Shown piece by piece: positions 20,860-23,311 of a stretch of DNA of 64,000 nt (its first letter is position 1; each line of letters opens with the position of its first letter). The notes beneath the pieces were generated by a model, which was not told the DNA's origin, did not search any database, and saw only the letters and a list, made by a program, of their open reading frames with translations. Source of the stretch: Oscillospiraceae bacterium (GTDB lineage: Bacteria; Bacillota; Clostridia; Oscillospirales; Ruminococcaceae); the NCBI GenBank assembly GCA_009781425.1, contig WQYC01000010.1:1-64000 (forward strand). The letters run 5' to 3'. Both the position numbers and the translations under genes were made by a program.

Positions 20860-21038
20860 AGTCGGTCGCCCCGAAGGGCAACCGACTGAACCGCTAACGC
20901 CGTAAAATATGGCATATAAAACCCGCCAACGGCAGGGTGGGTAAAGTTCGCCTGCAGGTTCGCGCTCCCTTCGTCCGACGGTTTTAACCGCCGGGAGGTC
21001 TGCAATCCGCTGACAGAGTCGAAATCCCGTTTTATATG
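20860..21038 (-). ncRNA. Structured small RNA, probable 6S RNA (ssrS-like)
   Basis: Minus strand: TATAAT at 21050-21045, closing helix CATATAAAAC/GTTTTATATG, central bulge, apical stems CTCCC/GGGAG and GGCGGTT/AACCGTC, terminator AGTCGGTTGCCCTTCGGGGCGACCGACTTTTTT. Confidence 0.65.
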
Positions 21039-21121
21039 TGTTGGATTATATTAACCATACTTAAACGCACGAAGCAGTAAAGTTTCTCAGGTGAACCTGT
21101 CTCAGGTAAGCCTAAACTAAT

Positions 21122-21439
21122 TTAAACTTCCTCAAAGCCGTCCATCATTTCGTCAAAATGCGATAAAAACATCTCGCCTATTTTGTCGGAAAGTGCTTCA
21201 TCGTCTATCGTCGCAAGGAAAAACTCGCCGTCTTCCTCAACCTCGCGCAGAACTATAAACTCAACCTCTGCGTCCTCGTCTTCTTCCTCGTTCTCGTCGT
21301 AAGGAATCAGCGCGAGATAATTTACGTCCTCATAAGTCAGCGCGTCGATAATTTCAAATTGCTCGCCGTCGAGCTCAATTATATCGGCTTCAAATTCCTC
21401 GGTTTCTTCCAAGCCGTTGTCTTTTTCAAAGTCAGCCAT
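21122..21439 (-). CDS. DUF1292 family protein
   Basis: Acidic; IIELDGEQFEIIDALTYEDVNYLALIPYDENE; RBS gaaaggtg before ATG 21439. Confidence 0.8.
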   Translation of the reverse strand: MADFEKDNGLEETEEFEADIIELDGEQFEIIDALTYEDVNYLALIPYDENEEEDEDAEVEFIVLREVEEDGEFFLATIDDEALSDKIGEMFLSHFDEMMDGFEEV

Positions 21440-21602
21440 ATTTTGCACCTTTCTGTTGCGTTATTGTGTTAGATTAAGTATACAATAAAAACAACCGCTT
21501 GTCAATAAGAAATACTGCATTTTTTGCCAAGATTTTGAAAAAACATATAAAACATTGTTAAGAGTAATAAACAATTGTTTAAAACTTTGTGCATTTTGAC
21601 TG

Positions 21603-21631
21603 TTGACATTGCTGTATAAATATGGTATTAT
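21603..21631 (+). promoter_or_regulatory. Near-consensus sigma70 promoter TTGACA-17-TATTAT
   Basis: TTGACA 21603-21608, 17-nt spacer, TATTAT 21626-21631. Confidence 0.8.
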
Positions 21632-21637
21632 ATAAAC

Positions 21638-22270
21638 ACGGAAGAAACTTCAGAAAACAAAAGCAGAAACAGAAGCGGCGAAAACAGTAAGATTAACGAT
21701 GGTGAAATTACTGTAAAAGGGCAGCGGAAGAAGAAGCGGAAGGCGAGTATGAAGCGGAACCGAGGCAAAGGCGGGCTTCAAATATAAATTGAAGTGAAAA
21801 GCCAAAACGACCGAGAAAGGGGAGCGAGTCCAATGGATGTAGAAATCAAAGTGCTGAGCGTATGTTGCGGCTCGTGCACCGATTAAGCAAATGCTTGAAA
21901 TCAAGGTTGAACTTGAAAGCTCGAACGGCTTAAAGGTTTACTGGATTTAAGACGGTACTTCTACCGAAAAACGCTTATACCGGGAATCAAGTTAGCAACA
22001 ACACTTAGCGGAAATAAATTTAATAAGGCGGAAAAGCCTGATTGCCTAACTGAAAGTTTATATGCCGGCAGGAAGATGACTGCACTTTAAGGTGACGGAG
22101 GGTGTAAAGAAACCGGAAGGAAGCCTTGAAAGTAAGCCGGATTAACCGCGAAAGCGTTTAAATAAAAAATGTAAAGTTTCAAGTAAATCCAACGAAAGCG
22201 ACATGAGCGCGTCGTGGGAAGCAAAATTTAATATATACGACCCGCGCAGGTTGACTGCGCGGGTTTTTTG
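21638..22270 (+). ncRNA. Long (~630 nt) structured non-coding RNA, class not identified (ROOL/GOLLD/OLE-type large ornate RNA to be tested)
   Basis: No + strand ORF of 60 aa or more in the body of the region; strong promoter; hairpins ACAGTAA/TTACTGT, CTTCAA/TTGAAG, CGGTA-CTTC-TACCG, AGGC-GGAAAA-GCCT, CGC-GAAA-GCG; terminator CCCGCGCAG-gttga-CTGCGCGGG-TTTTTT. Confidence 0.7.
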
Positions 22271-22318
22271 TGCTATAATTAATTCTGTACACCCTTTTGA
22301 AAGGCGGTCGGAATTTTT

Positions 22319-23311
22319 ATGGATTATAAAATTAATCTCGGCGCGTGGAACAGCGTTTTCGCCGTTCCGTCCGCAGTCGTGGATAATTACATAAAATTAG
22401 CAGGCGGAAATAATTTAAAGGTTCTGCTTTTTGTTCTAAGAAACGCGGGCGAAAATATAACAGTTGATGAAGCTTCGTGCAAAACCGGAGTAAATCCGGA
22501 CGACGTGAAGGACGCTTTGCTCTTTTGGGAGCAGACAGGGATTTTCGCGGCGCGTGAAAATGAAATTGTACCAAGCGAAACCGCGCAGGTATCTGCTAAT
22601 AAATACGAAACAGAACACGAGCGAATAGCTTCAAAGCTGAAAAAAATTGAAACAGAAGCAAAAGTCCAATTAGAGCGCGAACCGCGCTTTAATCCGAAAG
22701 AAATCGCACAGGCAGTTCGCGGCGACGAGGGCATGGACTTCCTCTTCAAGGAATGTGAAAAAATCTTCGGCAGACCGCTCAAGCATAACGAGCAGAACTC
22801 GCTGATGATTATAACCGAAGACGTCGGAATCCCCGCCGAATGTGCGCTGATGTTAGTTGAATACTGCGCCTCCTGCGGAAAAGCAACGCCCGCTTACATG
22901 AGAAAAATCGCGAAGGACTGGCACGAACGCGAGATTTTATCAATAAGCCAGGCAGAAGATGAAATAAAAGTTCTGCGCGAAATCAACAGCTTTGAAGGCA
23001 GAATGAAACGCCTGCTCGAAATGAAAAGAGCTTTTTCCGAAAAAGAAAAAATAATTATCAGAAGGTGGTCTGCGAGCAATTACGGTGAGGAATTGCTTTT
23101 CACTGCCTATCAAATGACGCTCGACGGCGCGAACGAATTATCGCTGCCTTACATGAATAAAATCCTCGAAAACTGGGACAAGGACGGCATAAGAAGCAAG
23201 GAACAGTTAGAAGAATCGCAGAAGAATTTCAAGAATAACAAGCAAAAAGCCGAAGATGTTAAATCTTCGTTCGACTTGGAAAAAATATGGCAGAATATTA
23301 TCGAAAAGTAG
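22319..23311 (+). CDS. DnaD-domain primosomal protein
   Basis: DnaD-like FKECEKIFGRPLKHNEQNSLMIITEDVGIPAECALMLVEYC; followed by DnaC-like ATPase. Confidence 0.8.
   Translation: MDYKINLGAWNSVFAVPSAVVDNYIKLAGGNNLKVLLFVLRNAGENITVDEASCKTGVNPDDVKDALLFWEQTGIFAARENEIVPSETAQVSANKYETEHERIASKLKKIETEAKVQLEREPRFNPKEIAQAVRGDEGMDFLFKECEKIFGRPLKHNEQNSLMIITEDVGIPAECALMLVEYCASCGKATPAYMRKIAKDWHEREILSISQAEDEIKVLREINSFEGRMKRLLEMKRAFSEKEKIIIRRWSASNYGEELLFTAYQMTLDGANELSLPYMNKILENWDKDGIRSKEQLEESQKNFKNNKQKAEDVKSSFDLEKIWQNIIEK

Follow-up and report, generated by a model that had tools for sequence, protein, structure and literature searches.

A structured RNA family beside DUF1292 and 6S RNA with a strong ribosome site and a conserved short frame

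Introduction

Two-codon minigenes, as single elements, and dual-function RNAs have been described before. The lambda bar minigene has two codons and acts via its translation and not via a protein, and RNAIII, SR1 and SgrS are regulatory RNAs with a dual function. 6S RNA sequesters RNA polymerase and holds it, and, on the side of the ribosome, one 30S initiation complex covers ~54 nt of mRNA. Two-codon minigenes in the LEE1 leader and in axe-txe (mg2) combine a strong ribosome site with an AUG, one codon and a stop (PMC8708949). Such frames with strong sites were proposed to stabilise RNA in cis (PMC8708949), an effect that would need no sponge role.

Here, I compare these systems with an RNA encoded in a 64,000-nt stretch of Oscillospiraceae DNA (contig WQYC01000010.1, positions 1 to 64,000), hereafter the window. 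A free-standing structured RNA with a ~17-codon frame, joined in relatives by spaced mini-frames, was not previously known as far as I found, and a literature search of incomplete coverage returned no report of such an RNA.

Results

Boundaries, known classes and neighbours

A preliminary description, made from the sequence of the window, had proposed a large structured non-coding RNA bracketed by an ideal promoter and a terminator. Both signals are present, flanking an interval of ~630 nt, and the locus has the following outline:

21603..21631, + strand: putative sigma-70-type promoter, TTGACA-17-TATTAT with TG before the -10, read from the sequence and found in the same form upstream of homologs
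21640..22270, + strand: the RNA, its 5' end placed from the -10 and its 3' end from the terminator, with homologs found by blastn
22239..22270, + strand: intrinsic terminator GACCCGCGCAGGTTGACTGCGCGGGTTTTTT, read from the sequence; many homologs have terminators of different sequence
21122..21448, - strand: DUF1292 gene, the divergent neighbour, kept throughout the genus and also in further genera of the family and a second family
20884..21083, - strand: 6S RNA (RF00013), the neighbour beyond DUF1292, 39.8 bits, E 2e-6, gathering score 46.4

The promoter matches the consensus at 11 of 12 positions and has the TG before its -10, and because most of the genus has a promoter of this form 130-280 nt 5' of the corresponding internal ATG, it is more than a chance match; the RNA would be transcribed from here. 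The body was said to hold no + strand ORF of 60 aa or more, which was borne out, the single mechanical frame (63 aa, 22203-22394) crossing the terminator into dnaD. If the reading favoured below is borne out, it would also show that the lack of such an ORF is no evidence that an RNA stays untranslated.

The cmscan comparison with Rfam that had been suggested earlier was run, and no routine RNA matched: the whole window gave zero matches at gathering thresholds, and at E<=10 the interval 21400-22330 gave only weak ones, most of them driven by the terminator. ROOL, GOLLD, OLE, raiA, RNase P and tmRNA were unmatched at E<=10 in this interval, which agrees with the reported absence of tmRNA and RNase P signatures and leaves the suggested kinship with ROOL, GOLLD or OLE unsupported. 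Searching distant homologs against Rfam gave no match to ROOL, GOLLD or OLE either, and kinship with an Rfam family was rejected, the neighbouring 6S RNA being the only match. ARAGORN found no tmRNA in the window, and a tmRNA identity was rejected since the genome already has a normal tmRNA elsewhere (contig C6, 162 bits) and a tRNA-like domain is absent here. The 6S RNA itself scores below the gathering score, so that routine annotation would miss it.

Comparing the 631-nt interval with 60 genomes of the genus by blastn returned one full-length homolog with 76% identity, a second with ~72% over most of the interval, and several patchy ones. In most of these loci the RNA lies between a divergent DUF1292 and dnaD; in L009 it adjoins DUF1292 only. 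The anchor GCGAGTCCnRTGG lies beside DUF1292 in 50 of the 56 genus genomes with a DUF1292 match, a tally that includes G022, G029 and G009. When 85,000 species genomes were scanned for the pattern, the RNA turned up in MAGs of Ruminiclostridium/Oscillospiraceae type and in one isolate, Acutalibacter sp. 1XD8-36 (L152), while hits in unrelated phyla lacked the architecture and were about as numerous as the dozen or so estimated by chance. A covariance model of the anchor region matched every sampled genome of the genus as well as other genera and families of the order; the class-wide search outside the order gave nothing convincing, with a single match of 26 bits. All opened matches from ~29 bits up had the architecture. 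Many matches near or below ~28 bits were ordinary gene starts with strong sites (L201, L204, L209, L212, L213, L216), and the tally of the model is therefore not a count of true members. One of these, L201, carries at 935-992 a 41-codon frame (MESKIKKLIKLVQQLEELIKAIISILGWIY...) behind a ribosome site of -22 kcal/mol; it looks like a small amphipathic peptide gene, and was found only via its site.

6S RNA lies beyond DUF1292 in several relatives too, including one from another family. Because the genes downstream of the RNA differ between species and DUF1292 and 6S RNA stay upstream, the RNA is tied to these two and not to dnaD, as had been supposed. DUF1292 accompanies 6S RNA and the RNA in at least two families and is a possible functional partner.

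A strong ribosome site and a frame of conserved length

At the centre of the RNA, a ribosome site and a 17-codon frame (together 21815-21886) had been overlooked in the preliminary description:

21815..21824, + strand: Shine-Dalgarno site GAAAGGGGAG, 16S-tail duplex of -13.7 kcal/mol, second of 56 sites including those of the window's 55 genes
21833..21886, + strand: sORF1, 17 codons, MDVEIKVLSVCCGSCTD, with its start codon in the apical region of helix P1

GAAAGGGGAG is found eight nt upstream of the ATG, and its duplex with the 16S tail is stronger than that of all but one of the 55 genes. Relatives have the forms GAAAGGAGG or GAAAGAGGTG, and the 16S 3' tail of a complete congener, GGATCACCTCCTTTCT, is complementary to the sites. 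Over 60 loci have the frame start at a fixed place with a strong site before it. Frame 0 is free of stops for at least 15 codons in all 62 loci and ends at a near-constant distance, giving 15-24 codons in 60 of them (29 and 50 codons in the other two), while many loci have a stop among the opening few codons of the +1 and +2 frames. Frame 0 has 16-18 codons in most true members that lie outside the genus; in the family f13 it has 17 codons in ~14 genomes, with peptides such as MGIEESCFQPQAHCMYW and others like MVTEETSYQFAGLAATL.

The peptide itself varies between clades, and what is shared is an acidic start and the part that is forced by P1. Codon-position counts showed a modest third-position excess in one clade (291 vs 246 and 181); for the window's own clade the counts were 50, 58 and 46, with no such excess. 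As more than 60 loci have a strong Shine-Dalgarno site at the centre of the RNA, followed by a frame whose length is conserved, calling the RNA non-coding is doubtful. A conserved frame with synonymous bias had been named beforehand as evidence against that label: the frame is indeed conserved, but the bias is weak and confined to one clade, and sORF1 therefore resembles a short frame that is translated from inside a structured RNA. It is probably translated, judging from these comparisons, but not as a normal protein gene. The motif ESQ recurs in sORF1 peptides. The window's sORF1 contains CCGSC, and a thioredoxin-like pseudogene was considered and rejected, as the frames of other species share no such motif.

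Covarying hairpins

The minimum free energy of the RNA was -169.1 kcal/mol vs -149 +/- 7.3 for 20 shuffles (z -2.7, better than all 20), an excess which alone is weak evidence of structure. Comparison of loci provided the following helices:

21774..21803, + strand: P0 hairpin just 5' of the ribosome site, GGCUUCAA...UUGAAG...AAGCC, a shifted form of a strongly covarying hairpin of relatives
21824..21831, + strand: P1 5' strand GCGAGTCC, pairing with 21868-21875, from the comparison of loci
21868..21875, + strand: P1 3' strand (C)GGCTCGT, within sORF1, from the comparison of loci
21917..21931, + strand: P2 hairpin AAGC-TCGAACG-GCTT, its stem covarying around a conserved UCNNACG heptaloop
21953..21966, + strand: P4 hairpin CGGTA-CTTC-TACCG, conserved and covarying
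22147..22156, + strand: P5 hairpin CGC-GAAA-GCG, followed by TTTA, kept in ~30 loci

P0, which was identified within the genus only, has a 3' arm that ends ~28 nt upstream of the internal ATG. Since MAFFT misaligned it between clades, a script was used to count its pairs by register. Over its first six positions, the 30 genomes gave 179 of 180 standard pairs vs 132 +/- 4.3 with shuffled partners, and most positions showed three or more pair types. As the arms had been chosen for pairing, a comparison with shuffles was added as a second control, and hairpins of at least 7 pairs occupied this place in 27 of 30 loci vs 34 of 600 shuffles. In P1, GCGAGUC pairs with GACUCGC, the latter lying within the frame, and most of the variation is one-sided. 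The P2 stem occurs as AAGC/GCUU, AAAC/GUUU, CAGC/GCUG, GAUAC/GUAUC and UGC/GCA, P4 recurs as CGGTG/CACCG, CGGTG/TACCG and TCGGA/TCCGA, and a fourth pair of P5 covaries across its ~30 loci. Three of the four hairpins quoted in the preliminary description, P4, P5 and ACAGTAA/TTACTGT (CGGTAA/TTACCG in the sister species), thus recur with paired base changes, whereas AGGC-GGAAAA-GCCT is not conserved among relatives. The idea of a structured, independent RNA unmatched in Rfam stood up well, given the paired base changes and the RNA's own promoter and terminator. On the evidence of these alignments and signals, the RNA is a new family of folded RNA, apparently transcribed on its own, in gut bacteria of one order.

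A spaced series of minimal frames in relatives

Strong sites followed by an ATG are about three times as frequent in the loci as expected (210 vs 70.6 +/- 7.4 in dinucleotide shuffles), where the shuffle z-scores overstate significance because related loci are not independent. The combination of CCRATG with a strong site, counted outside sORF1, occurs at 1.46/kb in the RNA vs 0.056/kb in antisense and distant DNA (~26-fold), and 35 of the 58 frames that it opens in the RNA have 2-3 codons, while 0 of 19 control frames were shorter than 4 codons. These modules are regularly spaced: taking one representative per lineage, 27 of 60 intervals (<=120 nt) measured 48-56 nt, and these 27 came from 15 lineages, giving a pitch of ~52 nt. 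Random placement gave 7.6 +/- 2.7 such intervals, with a maximum of 18 in 2000 trials. In one clade, the spacing is instead ~63-67 nt.

Module frames have either 2-3 or about 8-15 codons. G003 has four two-codon modules at +305, +356, +407 and +458 (AUG AAG UAG three times, then AUG UAC UAA), and in G344 the frames MGR, MGK, MGR and MG precede the 17-codon frame, while in many other relatives the modules follow sORF1. L159, L117, L109, L243 and L199 have ~7-10 modules over ~1.1 kb, with two-codon frames interspersed with frames of ~10-14 codons. Two-codon minigenes (site, AUG, codon and stop) numbered 22 in one count, with further cases in others, and none sits in the leader of a regulated gene. 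The window's own copy has no such minigene; its subclade (the window member and the sister species) has sORF1 only, and in most members of f13 a series is not obvious.

Three side observations concern these arrays. L067 (G103) has a 67-nt unit of site and 8-codon frame three times in tandem (+279 to +413 from the sORF1 ATG), suggesting that modules multiply by local duplication. A C-terminal (F/Y)HD(L/E)N motif ends frames in L159 (+486), L117 (+533), L109 (+534), L199 (+562) and L243 (+537), and with its synonymous codon changes across genera this frame is the best candidate for a functional micropeptide. Near the terminator, at the 3' ends of the L159, L117 and L109 arrays, modules of the form GGAGUGAGACC(A/G)CC lack the AUG.

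Discussion

The family, its structure, the conserved frame, the modules and their spacing are features read directly from the sequences. The narrow length of sORF1, its fixed setting, the two-codon frames, the complementarity to 16S rRNA and the pitch of the modules all point to ribosome engagement. I infer that the RNA is translated and has a regulatory role in which it would engage ribosomes via its short frames, either capturing and holding ribosomes or 30S subunits or being remodelled by them, a reading to which I assign a probability of roughly 45%. The RNA would engage ribosomes at very strong, dedicated start sites ahead of very short frames, and would not serve as an ordinary mRNA. In nearly all members, one such site has a constant structural setting, in which P0 (within the genus) precedes the extended Shine-Dalgarno site and P1 follows, with the AUG in its apical region, and the 15-24-codon frame extends into the 3' strand of P1. 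Translation itself, and not the peptides, would be the point, and the RNA could regulate or store the capacity for translation, in the way that 6S RNA does for RNA polymerase. The module pitch of ~52 nt is close to the length of mRNA expected under a single 30S initiation complex. More tentative, but possible, is a categorically new kind of bacterial RNA that offers ribosomes a succession of landing sites, each module with a minimal frame and about the size of one 30S footprint, and that sequesters or stores ribosomes in slow growth, as the counterpart of 6S RNA on the side of translation.

A ribosome site this good could simply express a functional micropeptide, and the RNA may be a dual-function messenger that encodes the sORF1 peptide of 15-24 residues and, among relatives, further peptides of 8-15 residues. 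The conservation of the frame, the third-position excess of one clade and the recurring motifs (ESQ in sORF1, (F/Y)HDLN downstream) are consistent with this. Still, the sORF1 sequence differs greatly between clades while its length is narrow, the sequence of its 3' half is set by helix P1, the window's clade shows no third-position excess, and two-codon frames hardly encode useful peptides, which makes a messenger role somewhat unlikely. Another reading is that ribosomes on these sites protect a regulatory RNA of other function from nucleases, in line with the stabilisation in cis proposed for two-codon frames (PMC8708949) and with the several hairpins that are conserved besides the frames. 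Protection alone leaves the narrow length of sORF1, its integration with P1 and the regular pitch unexplained, and I consider it improbable.

Even less probable is a purely non-coding ornate RNA, in which GG...CC-RAUG would bind a protein or an RNA and merely resemble a ribosome site: the conserved hairpins and the late modules that keep GGAGUGAGACC without an AUG would suit it, but a frame-specific absence of stops over at least 15 codons in all 62 loci, the near-constant distance to the stop and the complementarity to the 16S tail argue against it. A 5' leader or attenuator of the downstream gene, here dnaD, which the RNA precedes in the window and in several congeners, was rejected as highly improbable, because a terminator intervenes and the downstream genes vary by species while DUF1292 and 6S RNA keep their place.

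If holding of ribosomes is the correct reading, a common gut and rumen RNA would be neither a messenger nor non-coding in the classical sense: it would be a scaffold that engages translation, with short frames that matter through their position and length. One conserved locus would then link 6S RNA, the DUF1292 protein and the supply of ribosomes, and sequestration of ribosomes by an RNA would become directly testable.

Compared with known systems, the RNA shares its size range with ROOL, GOLLD and OLE, and like them stands alone as a structured RNA, in bacteria from similar habitats; it differs in having conserved translation-start modules and in being unmatched by their models. 6S RNA, whose gene lies two genes away in an arrangement that is conserved, would have in this RNA an analogue that acts on ribosomes if the sponge idea is right, but the two share no resemblance in sequence or structure, and the link is one of proximity and analogy only. 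tmRNA also engages ribosomes and contains a short frame; here the tRNA-like domain is missing, and sORF1 comes with a start codon and a site of its own. RNAIII, SR1 and SgrS resemble it as structured, regulatory-type RNAs with a short internal frame, but there is no detectable kinship, the sORF1 peptide is poorly conserved though its length is kept, and relatives add mini-frames. In two-codon minigenes, too, a strong site, an AUG, one codon and a stop act via translation. Those reported are single and lie in the leaders of protein genes, whereas here, among relatives, they often form spaced series within a free-standing RNA, which also has a conserved longer frame and is separated by terminators from its differing downstream genes.
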